DNA of 26,773 nucleotides from a virus (IMGVR_UViG_3300014913_000063:1-26773); one strand, 5' to 3'; counted from the first letter of the stretch, positions 1,860 through 24,886 are shown. The notes: generated by a model not told the origin, from the letters alone. Program-made: numbers and translations.

Positions 1860-1868
1860 TGATATACT
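1860..1868 (+). promoter_or_regulatory. Extended -10 promoter TGATATACT, start-proximal
   Basis: TATACT (1863-1868) carries the TG extension and ends exactly 6 nt before the ATG at 1875. A bacterial -10 box in this position places the transcription start at or next to the A of the ATG, predicting a leaderless mRNA for the head operon. Confidence 0.65.
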
Positions 1869-1874
1869 TTATAT

Positions 1875-2051
1875 ATGAACAACATTCTACTAATTATTAC
1901 AATAGTTATTACAATAACTTTACTTTTTACACACTTATACATATCTATTGTAGTCAAGAGTACGCTATATAGCAGAATACGAAGATTAGAAGACCGGTCA
2001 GATGTGTTAGAATCTGCAATTAACAAGTTAATTAAAATTGATAAAAAATGA
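1875..2051 (+). CDS. Small membrane protein, 58 residues
   Basis: A very hydrophobic N-terminal stretch (about residues 4-27, Ile/Leu/Thr/Val-rich) is followed by a basic-acidic segment (about residues 28-58) that should form a cytoplasmic helix. The layout is that of a single-span membrane protein. The stop overlaps the next start (ATGA at 2048-2051), as in a translationally coupled operon. The start-proximal -10 box 6 nt upstream supports this ATG. The function is unknown. A single-span protein at the head of the packaging operon could be a small holin or a membrane factor. Confidence 0.6.
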   Translation: MNNILLIITIVITITLLFTHLYISIVVKSTLYSRIRRLEDRSDVLESAINKLIKIDKK

Positions 2052-2263
2052 TTACGCATTTAGAAATATCAGATGGTAGGTTGTTTATTGTATATAACGG
2101 GAGGCTGTTTCATAGGAACATTAAAGCTGGACGATGGAATGAGATAAAACCTCCTAAGTTAATATCGAAGAAGAAGGGCGCAGGAATTTACAAACAATTA
2201 GATAAGAAACAAGAAACAAAGAAACGTGAGGAGGAATTTGATAATATGTTAAAAAATTTGTAA
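2048..2263 (+). CDS. Hypothetical protein, 71 residues
   Basis: I do not recognise this small basic protein. The first ~38 residues alternate polar and hydrophobic positions (LEISDGRLFIVYNGRLF) and probably form a beta-hairpin. The C-terminal half is highly charged (Lys/Glu) and probably helical. It starts inside the stop codon of the preceding small membrane protein and ends 6 nt before the small terminase gene, so it belongs to the same transcript. Its position just before the terminase genes suggests a packaging-associated role, but nothing in the sequence proves this. Confidence 0.6.
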   Translation: MITHLEISDGRLFIVYNGRLFHRNIKAGRWNEIKPPKLISKKKGAGIYKQLDKKQETKKREEEFDNMLKNL

Positions 2264-2269
2264 AAGATT

Positions 2270-2698
2270 ATGGAGCGTATAAAAGCTTTAACCAAGAAAA
2301 AAACAGGAATAACAAAAAACGGTAAAAAGATAGGAAGACCTACAAGGATAGACGCTGCGTGTGAAAGAAAATTGATCGACGCATTCAAAACGGGTGCATC
2401 GGCTGAACAAGCGTGTGCGTATGCTGGAATAACTTCTAAGACATTTAGAACCAAAAAGCAGAGTGATGAGCGTTTTTACCGTGAGATAAAAATTGCACAA
2501 AGTTATCCCGCTATGCTTGCTAAGAATCTCATCTTTAAAAAAATCCGCGATGGATCTGATGTTAACGCTCGTTGGTGGCTAGAAAAAAACGAGTACAATA
2601 ATAACAACAATAATACAAACGTGCAAGTTAATATCACAGGACACCATAAGCATATAGAGACAAATTTTATAGAAGACAGGGAGAATGGGGACAATTAG
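2270..2698 (+). CDS. terS: Terminase small subunit
   Basis: A 142-residue protein recognised by its N-terminal helix-turn-helix region. GRPTRIDA near residue 23 starts the DNA-binding domain, and the turn between helices is in GASAEQACAYAGITSKTF (about 37-54), a pattern common in phage small terminase subunits. The middle (about 60-95) is helical and could mediate ring assembly. The C-terminus after a run of Asn (about 105-111) is polar and may contact the large subunit. The subunit recognises the packaging site on phage DNA and stimulates the ATPase. It overlaps the large-subunit ATPase gene by 14 nt, the usual terS-terL order. Confidence 0.8.
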   Translation: MERIKALTKKKTGITKNGKKIGRPTRIDAACERKLIDAFKTGASAEQACAYAGITSKTFRTKKQSDERFYREIKIAQSYPAMLAKNLIFKKIRDGSDVNARWWLEKNEYNNNNNNTNVQVNITGHHKHIETNFIEDRENGDN

Positions 2699-3572
2699 AA
2701 CTATCAAGTACAAGGAGTTCATAGAAGAATATTTTTTGATAAGAAATAAAAAGTCGGAAGTTGTACCTTTTAAGTTCAATGTTGTCCAGCATACATATTA
2801 CAATATGCTTAACGAAGAACACCCGAATATGCAAGGTGCAAGGCAAATCATACTCAAGGCACGCCAAGAAGGGTTTACATCGTTTATTTCTGCTTTGTTT
2901 GCTACTGATTTTCTTTTTAGACCGAATAGTGTTTCTGTGATAATTGCCCATGATAGAGAGACAACCAAGAAGATTTTCAAGAAAATACATTTTTATCTTG
3001 ACTCGTATTGTCATAAAGCATTTGGGCAGGATCGTAATGTAATTTTAAAGACAAACTCGGATACGTCGCTTGAAAACAATATAAATGGTGCACAATTTTA
3101 TATTAGAACAGCTGGGGCAAAGGTAGGTGCTAGGGGTGATACGGTTAACAATCTGCATTTTTCTGAGTGTGCTTTTTACCCTGATACTGATATTATTACA
3201 GCAAAAGAAATTGTAGAAGGATCATTACAACAGGTGCCACTTGGTACAGGTATGGTATTTATAGAGTCGACGGCAAACGGTGTAGGTAATTATTACCAAA
3301 AGACATGGGAGCTTGCTAAGGCTGGTTCTAGTACATATACACCACGTTTTTTTAGCTGGCATGATTTTCCTGAATATACAGACGAATACATGGAAAGAAA
3401 ACGCAAGGAGTTTTCGAGTGAGGCAATGTTCAAGCAAGAATATCCTGCGACGGAAAAAGAAGCTTTCATATTATCAGGGTCTGGGTTCTTCGATTCCGCT
3501 ACACTATTTGCAATGCAAGATGATATAATCGACCCGATCTATTCAGGTGATTTATTATCTATTAATATATGA
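2685..3572 (+). CDS. terL: Terminase large subunit, ATPase half
   Basis: This 295-residue protein contains the whole DNA-packaging motor ATPase and nothing after it. Visible motifs: Walker A-like KARQEGFTS at 58-66; Walker B-type LHFSECAF at 157-164 with Glu161; the coupling motif IESTANG at 193-199; and GFFDS at 267-271, typical of the junction to the nuclease. The protein stops at residue 295 in the linker. The expected nuclease is encoded by the next gene, which begins in the overlapping ATGA. Typical large subunits are 450-600 residues with both domains on one chain, so this one is split. The two products together match a normal large subunit in length and order. The start at 2685 lies inside the small-subunit gene, as is common. 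Confidence 0.88.
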   Translation: MGTIRTIKYKEFIEEYFLIRNKKSEVVPFKFNVVQHTYYNMLNEEHPNMQGARQIILKARQEGFTSFISALFATDFLFRPNSVSVIIAHDRETTKKIFKKIHFYLDSYCHKAFGQDRNVILKTNSDTSLENNINGAQFYIRTAGAKVGARGDTVNNLHFSECAFYPDTDIITAKEIVEGSLQQVPLGTGMVFIESTANGVGNYYQKTWELAKAGSSTYTPRFFSWHDFPEYTDEYMERKRKEFSSEAMFKQEYPATEKEAFILSGSGFFDSATLFAMQDDIIDPIYSGDLLSINI

Positions 3573-4261
3573 CAAAGCCGTACAGACTGTATAGGATACC
3601 GAAAAAGGGGGAGAAAATAGTAGTTGGCGTAGACACTGCCGAGGGTGGTGATTTGTCAACCGCCGTTTTCAAATCTGTTAATAAATATGACTCATTCATG
3701 GTATTGTCTGGACATTTTTCTAGTGCTGAGTTCTCGCCATTACTGATGCGTGGTTGTAGATTTATACAAAAATTGGTAGGTAGAGCGCCACTTGTTGCTA
3801 TTGAAAGGAATATGGGAATGTCAACGATTAACTATTTTATGGAGACAGATTATCCGAACCTGTACCGACAAGAGGCGTATGATTCAACGGTTAAAAGATA
3901 TGTGTCACGTGTTGGATGGGTTACGACAACTCCGACGCGCCGTAAAATGTTAGACGAGCTTTCGATGGCATACAATGAGAAGCAAACAAGGGTATACGAT
4001 CAGGCTACGTTAGATCAATTGTTAACATTTATAAGAAAGCGGAAAACGGGCAAGCCTGAAGCAGAGGTTGGATGCTATGATGACTTGGTTATTGCAGAGG
4101 CAATAGCACACCAAGTAGCTTTGACAGCAAGAACGACCGATTTTGCTGGTGTAATAAGTACAGCTGTGCCGACTGTAAAGATACATCATACACTTGACAC
4201 ATACAATTTGGACGCCTTGGCGAAGGACACACAAAGAAAAGTTAATTGGAAAGGTATTTAA
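3569..4261 (+). CDS. terL: Terminase large subunit, nuclease half
   Basis: A 230-residue protein with the RNase H-fold nuclease of the large terminase and no ATPase motifs. The acidic residues expected for two-metal catalysis are visible: Asp22 in VVGVDTAEGGD, Glu79 in VAIERN, and Asp171/Asp172 in GCYDDLVIAEAIA. This domain cuts concatemeric DNA at the start and end of packaging. It starts in a 4-nt overlap with the ATPase gene. The new frame is open only from 3566 (TAA at 3563-3565), and no slippery sequence precedes it, so programmed frameshifting is unlikely. Either two subunits assemble, or a one-base sequencing error has split an intact gene exactly in the domain linker. Confidence 0.88.
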   Translation: MTKPYRLYRIPKKGEKIVVGVDTAEGGDLSTAVFKSVNKYDSFMVLSGHFSSAEFSPLLMRGCRFIQKLVGRAPLVAIERNMGMSTINYFMETDYPNLYRQEAYDSTVKRYVSRVGWVTTTPTRRKMLDELSMAYNEKQTRVYDQATLDQLLTFIRKRKTGKPEAEVGCYDDLVIAEAIAHQVALTARTTDFAGVISTAVPTVKIHHTLDTYNLDALAKDTQRKVNWKGI

Positions 4262-4270
4262 TGATATACT
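4262..4270 (+). promoter_or_regulatory. Extended -10 promoter TGATATACT, start-proximal
   Basis: The box begins just after the terL nuclease stop and ends 6 nt before the ATG at 4277, the same spacing as at 1860, 10737, 14370 and 17413. It predicts a leaderless transcript beginning with the zinc-ribbon gene. Confidence 0.65.
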
Positions 4271-4276
4271 ATTGAT

Positions 4277-4537
4277 ATGTCAGATATAAGCTCTACCGAT
4301 ATGTGGTTGTCATTTGATATAAATGATGACAGCATAAAGATAATTCATTGTTGGAAATGTTCAAAGATTCTTTTTAAGACTGTAAAGGGTGTAAGATTAC
4401 TTGTACCGTCATATTCGATATCAGCATCAGAGAACAAGAGACAAAATGACATTGTAGAAGCGTCAATCATTGACAAGAAAGAAGACCCGATCATTTTAAG
4501 ATGCAAGCAGTGTAAACATCAGTTTAATATAAGATAA
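4277..4537 (+). CDS. Com-like zinc-ribbon protein
   Basis: An 86-residue protein with two Cys pairs, CWKC (25-28) and CKQC (76-79), which together should bind one zinc ion. The segments around them (IIHCWKCSKILFK and IILRCKQCKHQF) resemble the two knuckles of small phage zinc ribbons such as Mu Com, but the spacer of about 47 residues is longer than in Com. Com stimulates translation of a neighbouring gene by binding its mRNA. Whether this protein does so is inference. It has its own start-proximal promoter and overlaps the next gene by one base (TAATG). Confidence 0.6.
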   Translation: MSDISSTDMWLSFDINDDSIKIIHCWKCSKILFKTVKGVRLLVPSYSISASENKRQNDIVEASIIDKKEDPIILRCKQCKHQFNIR

Positions 4538-5430
4538 TGTTAAGTTTTCAAGATTTATGTACAAGATGCCAAGAGATGTTAGGTGATAATGCAACTGCTG
4601 ATTTGACAATAATAAAAGACTACATCAACCAGGGTAAAGATGAACTATTTGAGATGTTTGGTAAAACAGTACAAGAAAAGTCAGCATCGTTAACATCAGT
4701 AGCAAGCCAAAAATCTTATGACCTGCCAATTAACTTTTTACGTGTTAATACTGTGACTTATTATGATGGCAGTACAACATATCCAGTCAACTATATAACA
4801 GACAGAGAACTATGGAATGCATTGTTCATTACGGAACATACAAGTTCAATCCCAACATCATATTTCATAGATCTTGGATTCGGACCTGCTGACGCTACAA
4901 TAGAATTACATCCAATACCAGCGGAATCTGGTCAAACAATAACAGTCCAATATACATCAATGGCAAAGGATATGACAAAAGATGACATAACGGATGGTAC
5001 AGTTACAGTAACAAACGGGTCGACAACTGTTACAGGTGCTGGAACGTCATTTGAATCATTATCAATTGGTGATTATTTTACGGTAACAAGTGACGGAGAT
5101 TATTATAAAATATTAAGCGTAGACTCAACAACACAGATCACATTGACTAGAAGCTACGAAGGAATGGGGCAAAGTGGTGTGTCATATAGAATAATAGAAA
5201 TACCACCAGTGCCAAAAGGGTTACAGATTGCTTTGGTGTATTATGCTACAGCACACGTTGCAATGATAAACAACACTACAAAGAGATACACTGATTTTAT
5301 TAATTTGTACAATACACAGGTTGAGAAATATAAGGCAGAATATAGCAAAAGGAATGTATCATCGATTATATCAGGTAATACGGGTTATTCATTGCAGAAC
5401 CCTAACTATACGCCACGTGTTATTACATAG
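4537..5430 (+). CDS. Head-tail connector/adaptor protein with inserted beta domain
   Basis: A 297-residue protein. The first ~130 residues (helical start, then DLPINFLRVNTVTYYDGS and NPIPAES-type strands) and the last ~90 resemble phage adaptor or tail-tubular proteins that bind the portal ring and seal the head. Between them, at about 147-215, sits a Thr/Val/Gly-rich beta domain (NGSTTVTGAGTSF, LSIGDYFTV, ITLTRSYEG). A similar domain occurs in the tailspike at 15217. The C-terminal helix (YATAHVAMINN through YKAEYSKRN) is typical of the adaptor family. The next transcription unit is separated by a terminator at 5476. The exact family is not certain, but a connector role fits its place between terminase and virion genes. 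Confidence 0.65.
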   Translation: MLSFQDLCTRCQEMLGDNATADLTIIKDYINQGKDELFEMFGKTVQEKSASLTSVASQKSYDLPINFLRVNTVTYYDGSTTYPVNYITDRELWNALFITEHTSSIPTSYFIDLGFGPADATIELHPIPAESGQTITVQYTSMAKDMTKDDITDGTVTVTNGSTTVTGAGTSFESLSIGDYFTVTSDGDYYKILSVDSTTQITLTRSYEGMGQSGVSYRIIEIPPVPKGLQIALVYYATAHVAMINNTTKRYTDFINLYNTQVEKYKAEYSKRNVSSIISGNTGYSLQNPNYTPRVIT

Positions 5431-5475
5431 CTTGCGTAGAGTCAAATAGTGCGATAGACTGTGTATAAGTCAATC

Positions 5476-5504
5476 AGACACCTTTATAGTTGGTGTCTTT
5501 TTTT
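5476..5504 (+). terminator. Rho-independent terminator
   Basis: AGACACC (5476-5482) pairs perfectly with GGTGTCT (5492-5498) around a 9-nt loop and is followed by seven T residues. It ends the zinc ribbon-connector transcript 46 nt after the stop codon and directly precedes the next gene. Confidence 0.85.
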
Positions 5505-5513
5505 ATATATATT

Positions 5514-6662
5514 ATGGCAAGATTTGGATTATCACAACCTAGCGGGTATGAACAGTTTGGCGGTCCCAGTGGACCTATATTCGAAAAAAAGAAGAAAAAA
5601 GTAGCTTCGGTTCCAAAACCCCCTTCTGTTCTTGGAACATCGACAACACGGCAAGTAGGTCCAGTATATGGACCACAACAACAATTTGGTCCACAACCAG
5701 CACCGAAAACAGCAACTCAAACAAGTGGCGGAGTTTCAACATATCAAGGAGGTCCAACTACAGATTTTGACAAATACAGGGCATTGATAGAATCAAGAGA
5801 CGCACAACAAAGAAAGGATCGTGAAAGGATGTTAGAGGCAGACAGAAAAAGTAGAGAAGAAGCAGAAGAAAGAGCACAACGAATTTTTGATGAGCAACAG
5901 AACCAATTGGGGTCAGCACAACAAAATCTTTTATCTCAATTATCTGGGTTAGAATTGCCAGAAAATATTTTAAGTTCGTTGAGTGAAGAAATGGGATTAG
6001 AGAGTGCGCGAACAGGTGTTCAAGGGTTACGGGAGCAAATAAGTAGGATACAAGGACAATTAAGAGGGTTGCCAGAAAATTTACAATCACGAATAAGTAG
6101 ATCAGGATTGACAGAAGGACAAAGACAAGCATTGTTAGGAAAAGAAGAAAATGTATTTAGAAAGAGATTGGGAGATGTTTCTGGAGTTTATGAAACTGCC
6201 GTTGCAGGTTTAGGAGATATAAGAGGTGACGTTCAGAGTCAATACCAAGCCGCATTAAGAGGGCAAGAACAAAAACTACAACCATTTAAAACGGCTGTTG
6301 ATTATGCGAGAGAAAATGCTGGTAATGTATTTAACCAAGCAAATGAAAGGATTGCAAGGCAATTAGCTAACTTTGATGTGAACAGAGAAGCTAGCTTAAA
6401 CGCTTTAGCTGATAAGTTCACAAGGCTTGGGGCTTTGGATAATGCAGAGTTACAAGAATTATCGGATTTAGCTGTTTCAGAGAGGAAGTTTATAAACGGT
6501 GGAGCAACAGGAGGAGTTGCTGGAGGTATATTTAGTGATCCTGAGATGCAGGCTTTGTTAAGAGGGCAACAACAAACATTGGGTGGGGCAGGACAAACCT
6601 TCGCAGTACAAGAAGCACAACAGCCAAAAGGAACTATAGATGAGTTTATCAGTACTTACTAG
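5514..6662 (+). CDS. Helical virion protein, probable internal/ejection protein
   Basis: A 382-residue protein from the ATG at 5514. An upstream in-frame TTG at 5490 lies inside the terminator and is an unlikely start. The first ~90 residues are Pro/Gln/Gly-rich and disordered. From about 95 to the end the protein is almost entirely helical, with long charged coiled-coil-like stretches (RDAQQRKDRERMLEADRKSR) and many Gln residues. There is no enzymatic motif. Together with the next gene it stands where many short-tailed phages encode proteins stored inside the head and ejected with the DNA. That role is inferred from composition and position. A TATATATATT stretch immediately precedes the ATG and may be its promoter. 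Confidence 0.55.
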   Translation: MARFGLSQPSGYEQFGGPSGPIFEKKKKKVASVPKPPSVLGTSTTRQVGPVYGPQQQFGPQPAPKTATQTSGGVSTYQGGPTTDFDKYRALIESRDAQQRKDRERMLEADRKSREEAEERAQRIFDEQQNQLGSAQQNLLSQLSGLELPENILSSLSEEMGLESARTGVQGLREQISRIQGQLRGLPENLQSRISRSGLTEGQRQALLGKEENVFRKRLGDVSGVYETAVAGLGDIRGDVQSQYQAALRGQEQKLQPFKTAVDYARENAGNVFNQANERIARQLANFDVNREASLNALADKFTRLGALDNAELQELSDLAVSERKFINGGATGGVAGGIFSDPEMQALLRGQQQTLGGAGQTFAVQEAQQPKGTIDEFISTY

Positions 6663-6667
6663 ACAAG

Positions 6668-8776: not shown

Positions 8777-8782
8777 TACAAT
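8777..8782 (+). promoter_or_regulatory. Candidate start-proximal -10 box TACAAT
   Basis: TACAAT ends 6 nt before the portal start at 8789 and overlaps a second box, TATAAT, at 8772-8777. It lacks the TG extension of the strongest examples, so it is weaker evidence for a promoter, but the spacing is the same. Confidence 0.4.
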
Positions 8783-8788
8783 ATTATA

Positions 8789-10744
8789 ATGTACAATAAT
8801 TCAGGTTTACATAGAAACCAAGCAAACACATTTGATACAAACCAACAAGATCAACAGATTGATGAAATACCAGAATTGAAGATAGATATTAGTGACAGAG
8901 ATTTTCTGTCATATATGAATAGAATAACATCACAAGCAAAAGCTGAATGGTCTAAACAGCGTATTGACCAGAAAAGGAAACAGAGTAAAGCTTATTGGCT
9001 CGGTCAACAACTAGGGGAAGATAACAGAGATGGGTTGTTGAATTGGCAACCGACTTACATGGATAACATTATATTCAGGAACACGGAGACGATAATCGCA
9101 AACGCGCTTAGTAGATTACCTACTGCAGTAGCAATCCCACCATCAGGGACAATTGAAAGTAAAAAACTAGCAAAGATAATAGAGAGAAAGTTAAACAAAG
9201 AGATAAAGGGTGCTAATATGCGACATGTTTTAAGACAAAGTACAAGGCATCTGTTGGTGTTTATGCTTGGGGTTATCAAATACAGGTGGGACCCTACACA
9301 AGATCAAGGCGGAGAAATTGAATATGATTATGTTCACCCAGAAGATATATTAATAGATCCACGAACAAACGGAAAAGATAACCCACGTTTTGTTATTCAG
9401 TATCTTGAGGAACCGTTAAAGGTGATATTAGCTAAGTTCCCAAAGAAAAAAGATGAGATGTTTAATGTTCTTGGAATAAAAGCAGGAACACAAAACCAAC
9501 TTATGTCAAACATACGGTATGAAGAGATATGGTTTACATGGTATGACGACGACGGGACGCCATTCGAAGGTGTAGCTTGGAAATACCAACATGTTGTATT
9601 AGCTAAGATAAAAAACCCTAACTGGGATTACATGGGTGGAGAGAAAGCTAATTTGGTAGGTGATGTTGAATTTAAATATAACAACTTCTTGCCACGACAA
9701 GCAAAACCATTTATATTCATGAATTATCTAAACCTTGGTAGGAGAACAATAGATGACACGTCATTAATACAACAAAATATATCTTTGCAAGATACAGTAA
9801 ATAAACGAGGTCGACAAATAACGCAACTTGCTGATACAGCAAATGGTAAGTGGGTTGCAAGTGTTAGTGCATTTGATTCACAAGATATGGCAAGACTTGT
9901 CAATGATGACCCGACTCAAACAATATTGGTTAATGGTAGACCAGCGGATTCCATAACAAGAGTACCGGGACGTGGTCCAGACAATTCATTGTTTACAGCT
10001 ATGCAGGGTAACATAAACTCAATGAATGAAGGATTTGGTACGCATGGAGCTATAAGAGGAGCGGTTGAAACCGATGTTGCAACAACGGCGCAAATATCAA
10101 GGGAAGGGGATATTACCAGAGTTGATGATCTTGTATTTGAAGCTATAGAGAGAGCGGTAAATAGTATTGCAAATACTATGGTGCATATGATGAAGATTTA
10201 CTATACAGAAGATCATTATATTAGAGATATTGGTCCAGACGGCAGAATAGTACATAATTCTATATCTAATGACAAGATAGAAGATGGTGTTGAAATATTT
10301 GTAAAGGCATCTACAACGGATAAACAGACAACAGGGGCAATAGCTAGGGAGCTAATTGGTGCTGGTCAAATTGATCCGTTGACATTGTTTGAAGATTTGG
10401 ACATGGAAAACCCAATGGAAAGAGCAAAGCGATTGATGTTATTCCAATCTGACCCGCTGAAATATATGGAGGAAGTACTTGGAATGAACACAGGGCAAGC
10501 AGGGCAGGCTAAGAAAGATATTGACATGTTAAAAGAAGGCAAAATGCCAAAACTGCCTGACCCTGTAGATGAAGAATATTTGTCATTGTTAGGTGATTTC
10601 GTTGAATCTACTGAATTTAAACAGTTGGAACAAGAGATACAAGCAAATGTAATAGAATATATGCAAAGTGCAATTGAAGCTGGACGTTCAAATGTTGGAG
10701 TAGAACAGCAATCACAAGAGGAAGAACAAGAACCTGTGATATAA
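8789..10744 (+). CDS. Portal protein
   Basis: A 651-residue protein with features of podovirus/P22-like portals: a helical N-terminus with a basic stretch (about 45-70, WSKQRIDQKRKQSKAYWLG); a beta-rich wing region (TRHLLVFMLGVIKYRWDP, YDYVHPEDILIDPRTN at about 150-205), where the DPRT/HPED pattern is typical; WFTWYDDDGTPFEG at about 250; and a long helical stem and clip (about 325-480, NKRGRQITQLADTANGKW and following). A Gln/Glu-rich C-terminus may form a barrel or tail. The portal is the dodecameric ring at one capsid vertex through which DNA is pumped by the terminase. It precedes scaffold and capsid genes as usual, but it follows the ejection-type genes, which is less usual. Confidence 0.82.
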   Translation: MYNNSGLHRNQANTFDTNQQDQQIDEIPELKIDISDRDFLSYMNRITSQAKAEWSKQRIDQKRKQSKAYWLGQQLGEDNRDGLLNWQPTYMDNIIFRNTETIIANALSRLPTAVAIPPSGTIESKKLAKIIERKLNKEIKGANMRHVLRQSTRHLLVFMLGVIKYRWDPTQDQGGEIEYDYVHPEDILIDPRTNGKDNPRFVIQYLEEPLKVILAKFPKKKDEMFNVLGIKAGTQNQLMSNIRYEEIWFTWYDDDGTPFEGVAWKYQHVVLAKIKNPNWDYMGGEKANLVGDVEFKYNNFLPRQAKPFIFMNYLNLGRRTIDDTSLIQQNISLQDTVNKRGRQITQLADTANGKWVASVSAFDSQDMARLVNDDPTQTILVNGRPADSITRVPGRGPDNSLFTAMQGNINSMNEGFGTHGAIRGAVETDVATTAQISREGDITRVDDLVFEAIERAVNSIANTMVHMMKIYYTEDHYIRDIGPDGRIVHNSISNDKIEDGVEIFVKASTTDKQTTGAIARELIGAGQIDPLTLFEDLDMENPMERAKRLMLFQSDPLKYMEEVLGMNTGQAGQAKKDIDMLKEGKMPKLPDPVDEEYLSLLGDFVESTEFKQLEQEIQANVIEYMQSAIEAGRSNVGVEQQSQEEEQEPVI

Positions 10745-10745
10745 T
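10737..10745 (+). promoter_or_regulatory. Extended -10 promoter TGATATAAT, start-proximal
   Basis: A perfect TATAAT with the TG extension, ending 6 nt before the ATG at 10752 and overlapping the portal stop. It predicts a separate, leaderless transcript for the scaffold gene, which would let scaffold be made in larger amounts than portal. Confidence 0.7.
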
Positions 10746-10751: not shown

Positions 10752-11447
10752 ATGTCAGAAAACACCAATCAGGGGATGACAGAAACCCCACAACCACAGC
10801 AACCACAGCAACCACAGCAAGATATGTCTGAATACGATAACCGGATATCACATCTTAATGCACAACTTGAATCACAGCAATCGACCATAGACGAGTTAAA
10901 TGAAAGGATGTCTAATCAACCAGTGATAACATATCCAAGTCAACCGAAAAGTAATGATGAACGATGGAATGATAACCCTGAGATGCAGGAAATTAAAGAT
11001 TGGATAGCGAAAGACATTTATTCTACTTTAGATCAGAAACGCCAGGATGCTGACAATAAGATAGCAGAACAGCAGGCTGAGATGACAAAAATTGAAAAGG
11101 CAAGGGCAAGCAAAGCAATGAGCGAGTTTGATGTTCTTGAAAAAGCAGGCAAGATACCAGCATTGCCAGCAGATGCAGGTACAGACCATGAAGGTTATAA
11201 GGTGAGAACTGAAATAATAGAGCGAGCCAAAGAGTTTAGAACAGCGAGTGGTGAACTACCAGATTTATCTGTTGTATATGATAAAGTCATGAATAACAAA
11301 AGACAACCAGTAGGTGCAAGAGCACCAATTGGTGGTGGAAGTAACGCAACAAAGATGGGGGCAAGTGAGAAAACAAATGGATACAATCCAAAAGAAAGTA
11401 TAGAAGATGCAGAGGCGAGATGGTTTCCCGAGATACATGGTGGTTGA
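10752..11447 (+). CDS. Probable capsid scaffolding protein
   Basis: A 231-residue, hydrophilic, mostly helical protein between portal and major capsid, the normal place for a scaffold. The N-terminal 25 residues are Gln/Pro-rich, encoded by three exact CAACCACAG units (10791-10817). Residues 27-60 form a coiled coil (YDNRISHLNAQLESQQSTID), and a second helical region follows at about 75-125. The C-terminal part is Gly/Asn-rich before a final acidic-aromatic tail. Scaffold proteins line the inside of procapsids and are lost before packaging. The function is inferred from position and composition, since scaffolds are poorly conserved in sequence. Confidence 0.65.
   Translation: MSENTNQGMTETPQPQQPQQPQQDMSEYDNRISHLNAQLESQQSTIDELNERMSNQPVITYPSQPKSNDERWNDNPEMQEIKDWIAKDIYSTLDQKRQDADNKIAEQQAEMTKIEKARASKAMSEFDVLEKAGKIPALPADAGTDHEGYKVRTEIIERAKEFRTASGELPDLSVVYDKVMNNKRQPVGARAPIGGGSNATKMGASEKTNGYNPKESIEDAEARWFPEIHGG
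10791..10817 (+). repeat. Three 9-bp tandem units
   Basis: CAACCACAG is repeated three times exactly, encoding the Pro-Gln-Gln run near the N-terminus of the scaffold-like protein. In-frame repeats of this kind can change copy number by slippage without breaking the gene. Confidence 0.8.
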
Positions 11448-11473
11448 CTTTAGCACAAAAATCCATTTATAAT
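11444..11473 (+). promoter_or_regulatory. Sigma70-type promoter of the capsid gene
   Basis: TTGACT (11444-11449), an 18-nt spacer and a perfect TATAAT (11468-11473) form a strong standard promoter. It overlaps the end of the scaffold gene. Transcription from about 11480 gives an ~87-nt leader, unlike the leaderless units elsewhere in this block. Confidence 0.65.
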
Positions 11474-11498
11474 ACATATAAGCTTTATTAATAAGTTG

Positions 11499-11554
11499 AC
11501 AAATTGCAAATAGCAAACAGAAATGTGAGCTATTTATATTGCAAGTAAATTTGT
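11499..11554 (+). promoter_or_regulatory. Bulged stem-loop in the capsid mRNA leader
   Basis: The left arm, ACAAATT then GCAAATAGC (11499-11514), can pair with GCTATTTATATTGC followed by AAGTAAATTTGT (11529-11554), with a few bulged bases on the right arm and a 14-nt loop. It ends 12 nt before the ATG. A leader stem on the most abundant virion mRNA is plausibly a stability or translation element. Confidence 0.45.
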
Positions 11555-11566
11555 ATTAGAAATAAT

Positions 11567-14327: not shown

Positions 14328-14362
14328 AACTAGTGTCACGCCATTGTCATGTGACACTAGTT
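14328..14362. terminator. Perfect 12-bp inverted repeat before a promoter
   Basis: AACTAGTGTCAC (14328-14339) and GTGACACTAGTT (14351-14362) pair perfectly around an 11-nt loop. It follows the fibre gene by 14 nt. There is no true T-run after it (ATTATTG), so termination is likely but not certain. The next start-proximal promoter begins 8 nt downstream, so it may instead act as an operator or insulator. Confidence 0.55.
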
Positions 14363-14369: not shown

Positions 14370-14378
14370 TGATATAAT
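14370..14378 (+). promoter_or_regulatory. Extended -10 promoter TGATATAAT, start-proximal
   Basis: A perfect TG-extended TATAAT ending 6 nt before the ATG at 14385, following directly after the 12-bp inverted repeat. It predicts a leaderless transcript for the next two genes. Confidence 0.7.
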
Positions 14379-15177: not shown

Positions 15178-15197
15178 TGATATACTTTTAGTATAAT
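15178..15197 (+). promoter_or_regulatory. Double -10 promoter with palindromic core
   Basis: TGATATACT (15178-15186) is followed by TATAAT (15192-15197). The two share a palindrome, TATACT-TTT-AGTATA (15181-15195). They lie 30 and 19 nt before the tailspike ATG at 15217, so unlike the other units this mRNA would have a short leader (roughly 12-25 nt). Confidence 0.5.
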
Positions 15198-17397: not shown

Positions 17398-17412
17398 AAG
17401 TTTAAACAATTA

Positions 17413-17421
17413 TGATATACT
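17413..17421 (+). promoter_or_regulatory. Extended -10 promoter TGATATACT, start-proximal
   Basis: The box ends 6 nt before the ATG at 17428, immediately after the 8-bp palindrome GTTTAAAC near the tailspike stop. It predicts a leaderless mRNA for the next two small genes. Confidence 0.65.
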
Positions 17422-17427
17422 TTAAAT

Positions 17428-17790: not shown

Positions 17791-17981
17791 TGTACCACGT
17801 AATAATAAATTTCTACGATTCACAAGACACAGTAACTAAGGCATATAATGGTGTTATTACTATTGATTTAACTGATACTGACATTGATCATGCAGTTAAC
17901 AGGGCTAAGACAATAGCTAAAAAAGATTACATAAACAAATCACTGTATTATGTTGTCTCAATAATAGAAAAAAGCGACTAA
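17790..17981 (+). CDS. Hypothetical protein, 63 residues
   Basis: A small protein of alternating strand and helix: YHVIINFYDSQDTVTKAYNG, then ITIDLTDTDIDHAVNRAKTI, and a final YYVVSIIEKS strand. I do not recognise a family. A beta-alpha-beta fold of this size could be an assembly factor. It shares its transcript with the preceding fibre-associated gene through a TAATG overlap, and 22 nt separate it from the next gene, within which lies the next promoter. Confidence 0.6.
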   Translation: MYHVIINFYDSQDTVTKAYNGVITIDLTDTDIDHAVNRAKTIAKKDYINKSLYYVVSIIEKSD

Positions 17982-17986
17982 AATAA

Positions 17987-18005
17987 TGATATACTAAAAG
18001 TATAT
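17987..18005 (+). promoter_or_regulatory. Extended -10 promoter in a palindrome over the start codon
   Basis: TGATATACT (17987-17995) ends 8 nt before the ATG at 18004. ATATACT (17989-17995) and AGTATAT (17999-18005) form a perfect inverted repeat with a 3-nt centre that runs into the start codon, so a dimeric repressor could cover both promoter and start. Confidence 0.55.
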
Positions 18006-20181
18006 GAACCTACCAAGCAACGCAATTATCATATGGGGTGGGACTAATGCATCTATACCTGCTGGAACAACAAGAGAAACACAGTTAGATGGTAAATTCA
18101 TAAAGGGTACTGCAACAGCTATAGATCCAAATGTAACTGGCGGTAATGCAACACATACACACACAACACCATCACATACACATACACTTGTCGCACATAC
18201 ACATTCAACTTCATTGAGTGCTGCATCTGGAGGGAATAAGGATAGTGGGTTCTCTTCACAAGGTGGCGCGCCACATAATCATACGCATGCAGATATAACA
18301 TCTGGAGCAGTTAGTAATGCGACAGTAAGCAGTGAAACGCCAACAACTGGAACAGAATCTAATAATCCTCCATACTACGAGGTTATTTTCGTCAAGAGCG
18401 ATGGTACAACTGGAATCCCAAATGATTGTATTGTGTATCAGCAAAGCACAACAATACCATCAGGGTTTAATATAACTGATGGAACGAGTGGAACAATCAA
18501 CTTAATAGGAAAGTATTTAAGAGGTGCACCAGCGTCTGGAGATGCCGGTGGTACTGGTGGTAGCACTACAAACACGCATACTTTACCACATGGGCATAAT
18601 ACTTCGCATCAGCATGTGTCAGCAAGCACAGGCGGGATAAATAGTGTAGAAAATGACACTGATACTGGAACTAATGATATGGTCAGTTCTTCGCATACAC
18701 ACACAGTCAGCTACAATGCATACGCGACAACAACAACAGACACACCAGCAATTATTACATCTGAAATTGTAGAACCAGAACATACAGAAATGATAGCCGT
18801 GCAGAATATATCTGGTGGAGTAATAAGTGTGCAACCAAACGCAATTGTTATGTGGCTTGGAACGTTGGCATCGGTCCCTACAGGGTGGTCATTATGTGAT
18901 GGTACAAGTGGTACACCAGATTTACGTGACCAGTTTATAAAGATCAATTCAACATCAGGTTTGACTGGTGGAAGCAATATACATACACATGAATTATCAC
19001 ATGCACATACAGCTATATCACATACACATACAACACCCAATGTTACTCACGTAAACAGTGTAGCACATGACAATCATGGCTTTGGAGGTGCAACATCCAC
19101 ATCTATACATACAGTTACAGCGTCTAATTCTGACCAAACATTGGCTAGTTCAACTATGACATCGGGATCAGCTAATAATGAGCCTGAGTATGTGACAGTA
19201 GCGTATATAATGAATGTGACACCTAAGTTTGAGAAACATGTATCGTTATTATCAACTGAAGAAAGCACAAGCTCAGCATCATATACAGTAAATGCTGACG
19301 GTAAGTTACTGTATCAATACACTGCGGGAAATTATTCGGACATAGAAGCAGTATATCTTGAATGTATGATAAAAGATGATAGTGGAACAGCAACGGTTGG
19401 ATTACATACAGACGCTGATGTTCTTGTAACAGGTGCTGAGGTAGCAACGACAAATACTACGTCAACGCGTGTCAGGAGTGGAAACATATTAGGTGCTTTA
19501 GTAAGCGGTACGGATTATCATATAAAGTACAAATCTTCAGGGACGTTGACAGTAAGGTCAGCTAAATTAATATTTGTACAACAAGGCAGTGGAATAACAA
19601 CAGAAACACAGGTTGAGTTGTCACAATGCTTGAATAGTACAGCGACATATACATTGCCAAACAATTATGGTGTATGGAAGTATGACGCAAGCAGGTTTGA
19701 TGGTACTGTAACTGTGTACACAGAAGCCACTCTAAAAGCTAGTAACGCAGCAAGAACCGTATATGCACAATTATATAACCTAACAACAAGTACTGCTGTA
19801 ACTGGGTCTGAGGTTACACATACTGGCGATACAAAAGTAACAAGGGTAAGAAGTTCTGATATACTAGGAAACCTTGTAGATGGTGATGAATATGCATTTC
19901 AGGTTAAAGGTGATAGTGGTGAATTGGAAGATGTTATCTGTTGCAGGGTGATTATAGTACAATCAGGCACAGTAACAAAAACTGATTGTTATTTGCCTAC
20001 TAATACTATCGACAGTTCTACGACATCAACTGTTGTACAAAGTTTGAACCAGATATTTAATTATGACAATTCTAATTGGACGGCAAGTAGTATTAGTTAC
20101 AGTTTTGAGTCAACAGCTAAGATAGTATCAGACGAGAGTACAATAAGTAGATCGTTTGTGATTGGACAAGTGGATTTTTAG
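18004..20181 (+). CDS. Tail fibre with three collar domains and beta-sandwich tail
   Basis: A 725-residue protein. Three phage tail-collar-like modules follow one another (about 3-125, 135-265, 275-405). Each starts with a strand like NAIVMWLGTLASVPTGWSLC, continues with a core such as LRDQFIKINS, and ends in HTH-x-H clusters (for example HTHTTPSHTHTLVAHTH at 51-67). In T4 short and long tail fibres such His-x-His motifs bind metal ions along the trimer axis. Two similar beta-sandwich domains (about 415-535 and 545-665) follow, with the pattern TRVRSGNILGALVSGTDYHI and TRVRSSDILGNLVDGDEYAF, and a related C-terminal piece. This is probably a trimeric receptor-binding fibre. The collar and sandwich modules appear duplicated within the gene. 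Confidence 0.75.
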   Translation: MNLPSNAIIIWGGTNASIPAGTTRETQLDGKFIKGTATAIDPNVTGGNATHTHTTPSHTHTLVAHTHSTSLSAASGGNKDSGFSSQGGAPHNHTHADITSGAVSNATVSSETPTTGTESNNPPYYEVIFVKSDGTTGIPNDCIVYQQSTTIPSGFNITDGTSGTINLIGKYLRGAPASGDAGGTGGSTTNTHTLPHGHNTSHQHVSASTGGINSVENDTDTGTNDMVSSSHTHTVSYNAYATTTTDTPAIITSEIVEPEHTEMIAVQNISGGVISVQPNAIVMWLGTLASVPTGWSLCDGTSGTPDLRDQFIKINSTSGLTGGSNIHTHELSHAHTAISHTHTTPNVTHVNSVAHDNHGFGGATSTSIHTVTASNSDQTLASSTMTSGSANNEPEYVTVAYIMNVTPKFEKHVSLLSTEESTSSASYTVNADGKLLYQYTAGNYSDIEAVYLECMIKDDSGTATVGLHTDADVLVTGAEVATTNTTSTRVRSGNILGALVSGTDYHIKYKSSGTLTVRSAKLIFVQQGSGITTETQVELSQCLNSTATYTLPNNYGVWKYDASRFDGTVTVYTEATLKASNAARTVYAQLYNLTTSTAVTGSEVTHTGDTKVTRVRSSDILGNLVDGDEYAFQVKGDSGELEDVICCRVIIVQSGTVTKTDCYLPTNTIDSSTTSTVVQSLNQIFNYDNSNWTASSISYSFESTAKIVSDESTISRSFVIGQVDF

Positions 20182-20187
20182 GATATC

Positions 20188-22875
20188 ATGAGCAAAAAAG
20201 TATTAAGTCAAAGTAGGTTTTCCGGTGGTATAGCCCCGTCTGAAAAGGAAGGGTTGAAAAGCTCATATTTGTTTGGTAGGTCATTGGATTATAGAAATGA
20301 CCCATCAAAGTTAACTGTTTTACCAAGGACGGTGCAAGAAACTGGATCAGGTGTCAATGCTAATATACAGCTTATAAATGAAACAGATGTTGTCATATTG
20401 TCGACTACAGCGGTAACAGCTAATACGTTTACACGTATACGAAATGCTATTACAATGCCAACTGATGATGGAAATGAACTTGATATATCGATTAATCTAG
20501 GAACACAACCTGTTAGTGACTTAATACTGTGGGGTGAGAATATTAATAATTTATTGTATTTTTACGGTAATGGTGGCGGATTGTACACAAGAGACACAGG
20601 TACTTCTTGGAACAAAATACGCCAATTCACTGAATCTTCTGGCAATGGTTTGAAATATTTCCCTGAAGATGATTACTTGTATATTCCTAAAGATAAAACA
20701 ATTGCTAGGTATGGTCCGATAGGTGGTGATCCTATATTTTATGAAAATTTCTTGGATACAATAGGTGTGCCAACTAACACATTTTCGTGGGAGTTAGATA
20801 GTAGTAGTTCACAATATGCAACTGTTGCAGATAGTGCATCATTATCACCCACTGGTAGTGTTACATTCGAAACTAACATAAAAATAGATTCAGCACTCAC
20901 GGGCGGTGAATCAAGATATATACTGGAGAAATCAACATCATACGCTTTGTATTTGAAAGACAACGGAGCTGGAAGCGCTAATGTTATATTGGAATTAACG
21001 AACTCAGGCTCGGTTATGGAGACTACCACATTGGTTCCTGGGACGTTGATTGTAGGGAAGTGGTATCATTTAGCAGTAAGTTTTGATTCTACTTCATCTG
21101 CGTATACGTTATATAAAAACGGTGAAAAGGTGGACACATCAACTGGAGTATTAACAGATATACAAGATTCTTCTACAACGTTGTATATCGGCACAGATTC
21201 ATCTACAAGTAATTATTTTGATGGTCAACTTGATGATATAAGGATTTGGTCAGATGTTAGAACACTTGGTGAAATTGTTAAATTCTATCAGTTAGAGCTT
21301 AACTCTGCTGATGTTTTAGATACAGCTCTAAATGCGTATTGGAAACTAAATAATGGGTACACTGACTCATCTGTTAATAGTAATACACTCACACCAGTTA
21401 ACACGCCAACATTCAACACTAATGTTCCATTTGCTGGGTTGCCAGTGGGAGAAGATAGGGTTGATATTGATCAATATGAAAACTTGTCAGGTAACACATA
21501 TACAACTCCACTTGTAATAAGCGAAGCGAGCACGGAAATTAGATCATTTGTACCGGAAAAAGATCCAAACAAATCAGTGGAAGTTAACATTGCTGCCAAA
21601 GGTACAGGTGACTGGACAATAACAGTACATGACAATCAAAATGTGCTTGTTGTGACAAAAACTATTGCGAATGCAGATTTGCCTGTGTCAGGTGATTATG
21701 AATTTGTATTTGATACATCATGGCGTCCTGTTGTTGGCAAGACATATCATTTCCATCTAACATCAACTGTTGCAGATGGCACTGTTGTTACTGGGACAGC
21801 AAGTGATTTGAGCACGGCTGATTACCATACATATTACCAATATTTGGTTAGTGATATAGATTATCATCCTGCCATGACATTTTTAAATTATGTTGCCTTT
21901 GGAAATGAAAGATATGTAGCTACTTGGGATGGTATTAGTTACGATCCACATACACTTATATTGCCATCTGAATATAAGATAAGATCTTTTGCTGTTGTCG
22001 GTGAATATTTGGCTATTGGTACATGGAAAGGAACTTCAATCACTGATTTTGAGGAAGGTAAAATATTCTTTTGGGATGGTGTTTCTAGTAATGCTAATGT
22101 GATCATTGATATTCCTGAGGGTGGTATAAATGCGATGACAAGCTTTAGAAACAAACTATATTTTATCGCAGGATCAGAAGCGGATACATTCATTTGGAAC
22201 GGTTCTATTAGAAAGGTTACACGTACACCTAAACTTACAAACGACACACATGTTGAAATATTCCCTGGAGCGTTGTCTATCTGGAAGGCATTGGTTAGGA
22301 TTGGTGTAGCAGGTAATTCTAACAATACGCAAATAGAGAAAGGTGTTTACACATATGGGTCAAAAGACCCTTTGTACTCTGAATCTATAAGTTATGACTA
22401 CCCTATATCTTCTGGAACCAGAACAGGGAATGATCTACAAATTGGATGTGTATATCCAACTGGTACTGAGTTGTTTGTTTCGTGGCGAGAAGGTGCTAGG
22501 TATGGTGTGGATTCTATTACTCCAGGTGGAGTGCCATATGACACGGCAACGATGGAGTTCTTAATATTTGATAATAACAAGACATTCAAAGATAAACTCG
22601 CAATTGGTATAAAAGCAATATTTTCACCATTACTAACTGGTGAATCAATTACATTGAAGTATAAACGCAATCGGCAATCGAATTGGGTTTATAGTACAGC
22701 CAAAGTAGGTGACAGTGAAATACAATTGTCATTTAATGTCACAAAAACAAACATGAGGTTTAAAGAATTCCAGTGGGCACTTGATGTAGAAACCAGTGGT
22801 ACCACACCAGAGATATATAATGTGTCTTTCTTTTTTGATGATCTTGAACAGGAGACATCTGTAATGGAACTATAA
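20188..22875 (+). CDS. Large tail protein with LamG-like domain
   Basis: An 895-residue protein. The start (SRFSGGIAPSEKEGLKSSYL, RSLDYRNDPSKLTVLPR) is typical of podoviral tail proteins at the tail-tube/needle junction. Residues about 205-385 are a concanavalin/LamG-like sandwich (YATVADSASLSPTGSVTFET, GKWYHLAVSFDSTS, LYKNGEKVDTSTG, DGQLDDIRIWSDVRTLGEI), a fold that usually binds sugars. It looks inserted into the host protein. The segment about 425-560 is another beta domain. The C-terminal half (about 575-895, with NYVAFGNERYVATWDG, FFWDGVSSNANVII, LYFIAGSEADTFIWNG) has repeats suggestive of a beta-propeller. The function is tail structure with possible receptor binding. It begins 6 nt after the collar fibre stop and ends by a TAATG overlap with the next gene. 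Confidence 0.68.
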   Translation: MSKKVLSQSRFSGGIAPSEKEGLKSSYLFGRSLDYRNDPSKLTVLPRTVQETGSGVNANIQLINETDVVILSTTAVTANTFTRIRNAITMPTDDGNELDISINLGTQPVSDLILWGENINNLLYFYGNGGGLYTRDTGTSWNKIRQFTESSGNGLKYFPEDDYLYIPKDKTIARYGPIGGDPIFYENFLDTIGVPTNTFSWELDSSSSQYATVADSASLSPTGSVTFETNIKIDSALTGGESRYILEKSTSYALYLKDNGAGSANVILELTNSGSVMETTTLVPGTLIVGKWYHLAVSFDSTSSAYTLYKNGEKVDTSTGVLTDIQDSSTTLYIGTDSSTSNYFDGQLDDIRIWSDVRTLGEIVKFYQLELNSADVLDTALNAYWKLNNGYTDSSVNSNTLTPVNTPTFNTNVPFAGLPVGEDRVDIDQYENLSGNTYTTPLVISEASTEIRSFVPEKDPNKSVEVNIAAKGTGDWTITVHDNQNVLVVTKTIANADLPVSGDYEFVFDTSWRPVVGKTYHFHLTSTVADGTVVTGTASDLSTADYHTYYQYLVSDIDYHPAMTFLNYVAFGNERYVATWDGISYDPHTLILPSEYKIRSFAVVGEYLAIGTWKGTSITDFEEGKIFFWDGVSSNANVIIDIPEGGINAMTSFRNKLYFIAGSEADTFIWNGSIRKVTRTPKLTNDTHVEIFPGALSIWKALVRIGVAGNSNNTQIEKGVYTYGSKDPLYSESISYDYPISSGTRTGNDLQIGCVYPTGTELFVSWREGARYGVDSITPGGVPYDTATMEFLIFDNNKTFKDKLAIGIKAIFSPLLTGESITLKYKRNRQSNWVYSTAKVGDSEIQLSFNVTKTNMRFKEFQWALDVETSGTTPEIYNVSFFFDDLEQETSVMEL

Positions 22876-23396
22876 TGACAAAATCAAGCGGAGTAGTTAC
22901 ATTCCCATCAGTAGGAGGTAAAAGTAAAGGTGGGGCACTTGATGAGAAGATTTTAGAAGAGTTGCGCACACGTCTAACAAGAGAATTAGAAACTACATTA
23001 ATAGTACCGCTGAAATCACAATACTTACCAAAAGAATTGCAGTTCCAATTGCAATGTGCACCAGACACAACTTCTAGTACAACATTTGTTGATGTTGCGA
23101 ATTCATTGGCAGAGATAAAAATGAGTGATTGGTTATATTATTCTATGTATCTTGAGGTAATAGGAAAAACAACTGCCAACACAGCAGAGTTTAGATTATA
23201 CAATATCACTGATGGCAGTTCAGTATCTGTTGGACAAATATCTACGTCTTCCACATCTACAACATTGATTAGATCATCAGCAGTCACAAAGCCTACAATA
23301 GGAAATAAAAAAGAGTTCAAGTTACAGTTTAGAATGATAGGTGCGGGTACTGCTACAGCGTTTACATCTAGGATTGTATTTAGATTAAATAATTAG
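22875..23396 (+). CDS. Tail protein sharing the fibre's sandwich domain
   Basis: A 173-residue protein. The N-terminal ~55 residues are basic/helical with LDEKILEELRTRLTRELETT, perhaps a coil that docks to the tail. The rest (about 60-173) is beta-rich: YYSMYLEVIGKTTANTAEFR, then SVSVGQISTSSTSTTLIRSS, and KEFKLQFRMIG near the end. This reads like one unit of the sandwich domain repeated in the collar fibre at 18004. It could be a cap, chaperone or separate receptor-binding subunit of the tail. It starts inside the stop codon of the previous gene. Confidence 0.6.
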   Translation: MTKSSGVVTFPSVGGKSKGGALDEKILEELRTRLTRELETTLIVPLKSQYLPKELQFQLQCAPDTTSSTTFVDVANSLAEIKMSDWLYYSMYLEVIGKTTANTAEFRLYNITDGSSVSVGQISTSSTSTTLIRSSAVTKPTIGNKKEFKLQFRMIGAGTATAFTSRIVFRLNN

Positions 23397-23402
23397 TACA
23401 AT
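23397..23402 (+). promoter_or_regulatory. Candidate start-proximal -10 box TACAAT
   Basis: TACAAT ends 6 nt before the ATG at 23409 and immediately follows the preceding stop codon. It lacks the TG extension, so it is weaker than the main examples. Confidence 0.4.
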
Positions 23403-23408
23403 GTAATT

Positions 23409-23720
23409 ATGGCTATCGATTTTCAAGCAATACAAGAAGCAATGGCACGCAGACAACAACAAGGTGGTCAGGCACCGCAACAGAGTGCAGATGCTCAAAT
23501 GTTACAAGGACAAGCTGACGCAGGTGCACAAGTACAACCATTGGAACAGTTACCTCCTCGACCAACAGCACCGCCAGTTGATCCAATCATAAAACGCGGA
23601 AATGATATTGTTAAAGGGCTTGTACGACATTTGAGGGATATAACAAGACCACAAGGAGCCGAACAGCAACAACAACCACAATCACCAGTATCGGTACAAG
23701 AAGCCCCTGTAGGTTTATAG
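23409..23720 (+). CDS. Gln/Pro-rich hypothetical protein, 103 residues
   Basis: A hydrophilic protein in which Gln, Ala and Pro dominate both ends (residues 9-60 and 83-103). Between them lies one predicted helix, IKRGNDIVKGLVRHLRDITR (about 61-80). It is probably mostly disordered. Low-complexity Gln-rich proteins are common as minor virion proteins or assembly factors in this window (compare the scaffold and the protein at 5514). It stands between the tail and lysis genes and ends 4 nt before the next small gene. No function can be assigned. Confidence 0.55.
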   Translation: MAIDFQAIQEAMARRQQQGGQAPQQSADAQMLQGQADAGAQVQPLEQLPPRPTAPPVDPIIKRGNDIVKGLVRHLRDITRPQGAEQQQQPQSPVSVQEAPVGL

Positions 23721-23724
23721 AATC

Positions 23725-23820
23725 ATGATAGAAGGGTTAATAACATTTTTCTTAGGATTCCTGACTGGTTATGTATCTGCGGGAATTACACATCATTTAG
23801 ATAATAGAAAAGGTGAGTAA
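23725..23820 (+). CDS. Small single-span membrane protein, 31 residues
   Basis: A short gene reading MIEGLITFFLGFLTGYVSAG with a positively charged polar end (HHLDNRKGE). One predicted membrane span covers residues 4-22. It lies 4 nt after the preceding gene, and its stop overlaps the next start by one base (TAATG), so it fits the operon well. It may be a holin, antiholin or spanin-like factor in the lysis cassette. The small size limits confidence. Confidence 0.5.
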   Translation: MIEGLITFFLGFLTGYVSAGITHHLDNRKGE

Positions 23821-24071
23821 TGACAGCATCAATCATTGTGATGCTGTGTGGTGTCTTTTTCTTCACAGGGATAATAATTCAGAAAATCTTTTGTAGGAAG
23901 AAACCAGTTCCATCTATATTCATAATGTTTGTAATAGGGTGTGTTTGGGCAATCTCTACTATGGCAAGTGTTGTTGACAAAGAATACGTTACCCCATTAC
24001 CAATACATGGATTAATGAGTGCCCTTGTTGGGTACTATTTCTACAGACCCCCAGCTAAACAACCTGTATGA
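23820..24071 (+). CDS. Holin-like membrane protein, 83 residues
   Basis: Three hydrophobic segments (about 3-22, 33-51 and 64-76) with basic residues between the first two (CRKKP at 25-29) give a small multi-span inner-membrane protein of holin size. It lies directly before the C39-like peptidase gene. Holins form membrane holes that let endolysins reach the wall. The family is not recognised, and it could instead be an antiholin. Translation is probably coupled to the small gene upstream. Confidence 0.55.
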   Translation: MTASIIVMLCGVFFFTGIIIQKIFCRKKPVPSIFIMFVIGCVWAISTMASVVDKEYVTPLPIHGLMSALVGYYFYRPPAKQPV

Positions 24072-24077
24072 TATAAT
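24069..24077 (+). promoter_or_regulatory. Extended -10 promoter TGATATAAT, start-proximal
   Basis: A perfect TG-extended TATAAT overlapping the preceding stop codon and ending 8 nt before the ATG at 24086. It predicts separate, nearly leaderless expression of the lysis peptidase. Confidence 0.65.
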
Positions 24078-24085
24078 TTTACTAC

Positions 24086-24886
24086 ATGAAAATATTCTGT
24101 CAGACCAACGAAAAATACAAATATCAGAAGCTTGGCAACAGCCAGTTAACGTTATACGATTATGGTTGTTATTTATTTAGTCTTGTTAATGGGCTAAATA
24201 AATTATTTGGTTGGAGGTTTACCCCAGAATCGTTTTCAGACTTATTAAGAGCGAAAAATCTGTTTCTCGAATCAAACCCAGCATATATTAATGTAGACAA
24301 GGTGACTATATTAGAAGATGTTTTCACAGGATATGATTATACTGAACCTGTGGGAGGATCTAACAAACTCCGAAAGTATGGGGAGGGTGCTGTAGTTTTA
24401 GGGCGAGTTTCTGCTATATACATAGGTGGGACTGGTTCGCATTTTGTTTTGGTGCTTACCAAGACAGCAACACCTAGAACAGTAACGGTTGTTGACCCGT
24501 GGGATGGTAAAGAAAAACAGTTTGGGATTAACAGGATCAAAGGGATACGTGTTTACAAATGTAAAAGATATGGAGGTACAGACACAGCAGAGGTTGAGGC
24601 ATTGAAAGAGAAAGTTGCTAAACTTTCTAAGGAGAAAGGGGAAACAATACAAAAATGGATGAAAGTATCAAAGGATGTTGAAGCAACAAAAGAAGAGAAG
24701 AAAGAATTGGAAGAGAAAGTAAGTGATATGACAGAACGATTCAATAATGCAAAAGGTGAAGTAAATGCATTGAAAAAGGAAACGGCGGTAACTAATACAG
24801 ATGTTGAGCATGTATCAAACTTTGTTTCGGTCTTGGTCAAGTTTTTTGTCAACCTTTTTGTTAAGTTATTTAAATTAAAAAGATGA
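24086..24886 (+). CDS. C39-like cysteine peptidase, probable endolysin
   Basis: A 266-residue protein. Residues 1-155 look like a papain-fold C39-type peptidase: Cys28 in YDYGCYLFSLVNGLNKLFG, His119 in GTGSHFVLVL, and Asp137 in VVDPWDG give a plausible catalytic triad in the right order. From about 165 to 235 follows a charged coiled coil (EALKEKVAKLSKEKGETIQK and on), and the last ~25 residues are hydrophobic-amphipathic with a basic end (VKFFVNLFVKLFKLKR). Such C39-like domains are found in phage endolysins that cut cross-links in peptidoglycan. The coiled coil and hydrophobic end are unusual and might anchor the enzyme to membrane or virion. It overlaps the following holin-like gene by ATGA. 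Confidence 0.72.
   Translation: MKIFCQTNEKYKYQKLGNSQLTLYDYGCYLFSLVNGLNKLFGWRFTPESFSDLLRAKNLFLESNPAYINVDKVTILEDVFTGYDYTEPVGGSNKLRKYGEGAVVLGRVSAIYIGGTGSHFVLVLTKTATPRTVTVVDPWDGKEKQFGINRIKGIRVYKCKRYGGTDTAEVEALKEKVAKLSKEKGETIQKWMKVSKDVEATKEEKKELEEKVSDMTERFNNAKGEVNALKKETAVTNTDVEHVSNFVSVLVKFFVNLFVKLFKLKR

Follow-up and report, generated by a model that had tools for sequence, protein, structure and literature searches.

Extended -10 boxes at a fixed distance from start codons point to leaderless transcription units in a phage lineage related to Saccharibacteria phage

Introduction

The classic example of a leaderless phage mRNA is the cI message of lambda made from PRM, for which transcription starts at the AUG, and the Thermus phage phiYS40 was reportedly found by Sevostyanova in 2007 to have leaderless middle and late transcripts. 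Among bacteria, TA-led (leaderless) genes have been predicted widely by Zheng et al. 2011 (PMC3160421), and in Deinococcus radiodurans a -10 motif located 6-7 bp before the ORF was shown by experiment to function as a promoter (PMC12340547). A promoter with an extended -10 element can dispense with the contact at -35 (PMC7403470).

Here we analyse one IMG/VR contig of 26,773 bases with 38% GC (62% A+T), in the following called the window, whose plus strand carries a block of packaging, portal, capsid and tail genes. Several of these genes resemble those described for Deinococcus-Thermus, with a -10 box that lies 6-7 bp upstream of the ORF, a very short or missing leader and no Shine-Dalgarno (SD) site (PMC12340547); in the window the leader length is a prediction. 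In the literature that we searched, this arrangement was not found described for this phage group, nor did we find anything joining leaderless mRNAs with Patescibacteria, Parcubacteria or CPR phages.

Results

Boxes upstream of start codons in the window

A first-pass annotation had listed seven TGATATA(C/A)T boxes 6 or 8 nt before ATG codons of the window. All seven were found in place as perfect copies, five of them with a 6-nt and two with an 8-nt spacer (Table 1). The following parameters were used to judge them against chance: 27 curated starts were taken, each upstream distance was scored against TGnTATA(A/C)T, and, as control, the upstream regions were shuffled 2000 times with preserved dinucleotide content. 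A perfect box at 6-8 nt precedes 7 of the 27 starts, with a shuffle mean of 0.016 and a maximum of 1, and at exactly 6 nt there are 5 starts compared to 0.0065 in the shuffles, so that frequency and spacing are clearly above what the A/T content leads one to expect. Counted on both strands, TGATATAMT occurs 11 times in the window (1.15 expected in shuffles, maximum 5), and 7 of these 11 copies abut start codons. The remaining window starts reach at most 6/8 matches at any distance, with the exception of 15217 (7/8 at 19 nt). The two TACAAT hexamers that the same annotation had placed before 8789 and 23409 are present as well, but they lack the TG and match at most 6/8 positions; as a variant box TACAAT was rejected, being at chance level in relatives (1 at 6 nt, 0.34 expected).

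Several boxes (4262, 10737, 24069) abut or share bases with the stop codon of the gene before them, and at 24069..24077 the TGA of the box is itself that stop codon. Recoding of TGA was set aside, TGA terminating 7 of 24 plus-strand genes. Unboxed window genes mostly show ATGA or TAATG overlaps or start a few nt past the previous stop codon; this is the usual arrangement of translational coupling. The hairpin upstream of the box at 14370 is the probable end of the preceding transcription unit, although a clear U tract is absent.

Table 1. Coordinates of boxes, candidate genes and contrasting promoters in the window
Feature	Position	Strand	Remarks
Extended -10 box TGATATACT	1860..1868	+	6 nt before ATG 1875; spacer TTATAT, -1 base T
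Leaderless candidate gene, 58 aa	1875..2051	+	N terminus hydrophobic; upstream of terminase small subunit
Extended -10 box TGATATACT	4262..4270	+	6 nt before ATG 4277; directly preceded by terminase ORF stop codon
Leaderless candidate gene, 86 aa, zinc-ribbon-like (two CxxC)	4277..4537	+	Downstream of terminase
Extended -10 box TGATATAAT	10737..10745	+	6 nt before ATG 10752; overlaps portal gene stop codon
Leaderless candidate gene, 231 aa	10752..11447	+	Between portal and capsid (scaffold position)
Canonical promoter TTGACT-18-TATAAT (11/12), contrast	11444..11473	+	Predicted ~86-nt leader for capsid gene 11567
Strong hairpin	14328..14362	+	dG -17.2 kcal/mol, z -5.3; few nt upstream of box 14370
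Extended -10 box TGATATAAT	14370..14378	+	6 nt before ATG 14385; GTGACA 16 nt upstream
Leaderless candidate gene, 77 aa	14385..14618	+	
Two tandem boxes (TGATATACT, TAGTATAAT), contrast	15178..15197	+	Ends 30 and 19 nt before ATG 15217; putative short-leader promoter
Extended -10 box TGATATACT	17413..17421	+	6 nt before ATG 17428
Leaderless candidate gene, 120 aa	17428..17790	+	
Extended -10 box TGATATACT	17987..17995	+	8 nt before ATG 18004; T/A initiator step 7 nt after box
Gene with predicted 0-2 nt leader, 725 aa, tail/tail-fibre-like (phrog_5795)	18004..20181	+	
Extended -10 box TGATATAAT	24069..24077	+	8 nt before ATG 24086; T/A step 7 nt after box
Gene with predicted 2-nt leader, 266 aa, C-terminal coiled coil	24086..24886	+	

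Some further features of the window were noted. The predicted leader of the capsid gene (11474-11566) folds moderately (z -2.0), a portion of the fold covering the start codon, and has no SD site. The large terminase appears as two ORFs in different frames, 2685-3572 (295 aa) and 3569-4261 (230 aa), which share an ATGA overlap; most relatives have it as one ORF of about 460-550 aa, and the division may be a real split, a programmed frameshift or a sequencing error. On the minus strand, 26039-26773 holds two ORFs of tandem repeats like CPEHFDPKLFNWEKESWAVAE, one of which runs off the contig end. These repeat ORFs gave no match in phage records or in a scan of genome contigs, and the first none in Pfam. 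The two minus-strand genes that start at 1194 and 1627 are preceded by nearly the same sequence, AATTTAAAAAATAAAATG, which may represent another type of start signal. No Rfam elements were found in the window.

Distance between box and start codon in relatives

Searching viral contigs with the capsid or portal protein as a single sequence gave no match. Relatives were found with capsid and portal alignments to the TM7 phage and the Manatee Spring phage and subsequently to their kin, which resulted in a set of about 100 IMG/VR loci, of which a few come from the same contig. By tblastn the nearest sequence for capsid and portal is the TM7 phage MG269973 (33% and 28% identity over >90%), and the Manatee Spring phage MW202566 is also among the nearest for both. 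With homologous capsid and portal the window belongs to the Saccharibacteria (TM7) phage group of MG269973, although that phage stands in a different subclade, in which SD sites prevail. These two named relatives (L006 and L007) have strong AGGAG-type sites and encode chaperonins. Scans of bacterial genomes with the portal alignment and the terminal repeat protein found no relative.

The first-pass annotation had proposed plotting the box-to-ATG distance in related phages. We did so for 1593 non-redundant gene starts, counting at least 7/8 matches as a box and deriving the expectation from how often a box precedes the remaining ATG/GTG triplets of these contigs. A box exactly 6 nt before the start was found 92 times where 1.8 were expected; the counts for 7 and 8 nt are 23 and 13, and most other distances are near background. 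The peak persists when each portal cluster (60% identity) contributes a single record (52 six-nt sites, 1.2 expected, in 24 of 50 clusters). Counts of the exact pattern in whole records amount to 31 vs 0 and 62 vs 1 for the reversed pattern, with the box matches of each record confined to a single strand. No box peak was found in the unrelated phages lambda, T4, sk1, 80alpha, HTVC011P and crAss001 (32-50% GC, AT-rich ones included). A smaller second rise of the box 20-25 nt before starts was seen in the pooled relatives and likely reflects ordinary promoters with short SD-bearing leaders.

Form of the promoter and predicted RNA start

The logo of 101 six-nt sites reads TG(A/G)TATAATNNNNNYATG and gives the rule TG(A/G)TATAAT-N5-Y-ATG. 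It contains no -35 element (information <0.1 bit). The T of the TG is present in 96 and the G in 93 of the 101 sites, as in extended -10 promoters with a dispensable -35 element; the sites had been picked with a TG-containing pattern, yet TATAAT without TG at 6 nt is rarer in relatives, with 20 sites, although itself enriched (1.0 expected).

Regarding the base before the start codon, a pyrimidine (T or C) occupies -1 in 87 of 95 six-nt sites (92%), compared to 385 of 727 (53%) where a start has no box and no SD site (Fisher p 1e-14) and 48% at SD starts. Such a bias is the signature expected where transcription begins at the A of the ATG. Of 15 sites with an 8-nt spacer, 11 still have a pyrimidine-A step 7 nt after the box, and both examples in the window (AAAAGT/ATATG and TTTACT/ACATG) have it as well. 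This constancy is expected if the box dictates where the polymerase begins, always the same number of nt downstream, and the ATG has been placed on that position. The YR initiator step points to a primary 5' end on the start codon or no more than a few nt away from it.

Shine-Dalgarno sites

None of the seven boxed window genes has an SD site, as the first-pass annotation had noted. In the whole contig, however, SD sites were found at only 2 of 32 genes, with 3.3 in displaced control windows and hence no excess; since most window genes lack an SD site, its absence is a contig-wide trait and not special to boxed genes. In the relatives an SD-like tetramer precedes 3 of 154 boxed genes and 622 of 1502 unboxed genes, an exclusion that is partly forced because a box 6 nt from the ATG takes the position of the SD site. 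Across 68 loci, the box fraction of a contig falls as its SD excess rises (rho -0.47, p 5e-5).

Genes that carry the box

A short zinc-ribbon-like protein with two CxxC-type motifs is encoded between terminase and portal in most of the lineage (window, L007-L111). In the relatives this gene, located between the large terminase and the portal gene, is the most consistently boxed, in 29 of 73 phages; its counterpart in the window is 4277-4537. A box was found at the portal gene in 14 of 88 phages and at the capsid gene in 0 of 67. Besides the window (10752..11447), L008, L009, L019 and L025 also have one at the gene that separates portal and capsid. On the portal tree, the box of the zinc-ribbon gene shows about 20 changes, and it is absent in the TM7-phage subclade. 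A box gained and lost this often at orthologous genes is not indispensable.

Discussion

The best explanation for these observations is, with high confidence, a set of leaderless units transcribed from extended -10 promoters and mixed with ordinary leadered genes. The box would serve as the extended -10 element in promoters of the sigma-70 type that have no -35 element, and RNA polymerase would start 7 nt downstream of it, at a pyrimidine-purine step. The purine at which it starts would be the A of the ATG in five window genes and lie 2 nt upstream in two, giving mRNAs with a leader of 0-2 nt and no SD site that would be translated by the leaderless route, in which the ribosome engages a 5'-terminal AUG. 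Along the structural-gene strand the boxes would open several separate, compact transcription units. Genes inside such a unit would be reached via translational coupling and the capsid gene via its leadered promoter. In the window phage and in dozens of relatives, translation of the boxed genes probably proceeds with no ribosome-binding site. Against this reading stand the frequent gain and loss of the box at the zinc-ribbon gene, the prevalence of SD sites in the TM7 phage, as the closest named relative, and in its subclade, and the partly forced exclusion of box and SD site; transcripts reading through from upstream could also supply the boxed genes with leaders.

The first-pass annotation had gone further and proposed a deliberate leaderless regime. 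Leaderless starts are well supported by the 6-nt spacing in dozens of relatives, the YR initiator, the absence of SD sites and the recurrence at orthologous genes. The word regime overstates the case, as about 7 of 27 window starts are boxed, the rest being coupled or leadered, and in many relatives boxes occur side by side with SD sites.

The boxes could in principle be a chance or composition effect of AT-rich, tightly packed DNA, spotted for their nearness to ATGs. The window is indeed 62% A+T and both TACAAT sites are at chance level, but the shuffles give at most one box and the reversed-pattern controls are near zero, there is a 50-fold excess at exactly 6 nt over other ATG/GTG triplets of the same contigs, AT-rich unrelated phages show no peak, and composition leaves the initiator pyrimidine unexplained. 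The spacing peak refutes a chance origin of the TGATATAMT sites, and we regard this explanation as extremely improbable. Also quite improbable, though less so, is a reading that accepts the boxes as true promoters and gives the transcripts short leaders of 5-15 nt in place of none. Initiation would then be of a non-SD type, by recognition of an A/U-rich leader or by coupling from read-through transcripts, and the spacing would reflect compact packing only. Most genes of the contig have neither SD site nor box, so the host can evidently start translation without SD sites, and the tandem boxes 19-30 nt upstream of gene 15217 agree with short leaders; packing alone, however, predicts a spread of distances and not a 6-nt peak with a pyrimidine at -1 and a purine at +1.

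Which polymerase reads the box is a separate matter, compatible with leaderless starts. A phage-altered polymerase could switch the late programme to extended -10 promoters, either by way of a phage sigma factor or, as with gp39 of P23-45, through displacement of sigma region 4 by a phage protein. The sites lack a -35 element and have kept the TG, and the middle and late promoters of P23-45 are of the extended -10 class, favoured by gp39 (PMC7403470). Extended -10 promoters are nevertheless read by host sigma-70 unaided, and the TG is also frequent in leadered boxes of the same contigs (65 of 135). A Sigma70_r2 domain was not found in 23 related records, while control genomes do match, and the window itself is a fragment; this result counts against a phage-encoded sigma-70-type factor and is silent on a sigma-remodelling protein, small proteins of this kind being beyond sequence-based recognition here. 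An altered polymerase seems unlikely to us, the simplest reading being a host-type sigma-70 polymerase acting on the extended -10 element. As a tentative idea, this lineage, kin of Saccharibacteria phage, might run part of its programme on leaderless mRNAs as its hosts (perhaps other Patescibacteria) rely little on SD sites, with leaderless and SD starts swapped gene by gene upon a change of host; or the phage might steer the polymerase to extended -10 promoters.

For this uncultured phage group, TGnTATAAT-N5-Y-ATG provides a clear and testable rule for transcription and translation starts, which helps to correct gene starts and predicts operon boundaries. Leaderless and other starts have replaced each other many times at one and the same orthologous gene, so that comparative work can address what leaderless initiation costs and what it gains.

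Compared to the described systems, the motif of Deinococcus-Thermus is TANNNT (often TACACT), whereas here a full extended -10 box TGnTATAAT is found together with a Y(-1)R(+1) step. As in the phage lineage, the genes concerned occur alongside SD-led ones in Deinococcus-Thermus genomes; that system was tested by experiment, while ours is a phage of an uncultivated host read from sequence alone (PMC12340547). In TA-led genes a TATAAT-like signal with its first T ~12 bp upstream is taken as a leaderless -10 box; similarly, the first T of the TATAAT-like box lies about 10-12 bp upstream of the start here, above chance. Zheng et al. 2011 surveyed host genomes, and this phage lineage was outside their coverage (PMC3160421). 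P23-45 has extended -10 middle and late promoters (PMC7403470), the promoter class predicted for the window, and in phiYS40 DNA we found a weak box excess at 5-9 nt (5 vs 0.3); transcription in these two phages was studied by experiment, and both they and their hosts are unrelated to the window lineage. In lambda, leaderless expression of cI concerns a single gene, and the phage overall shows no box peak. What we describe is thus a new phage lineage for a known mechanism, that of the Deinococcus-Thermus '-10 motif' and the TA-led genes.
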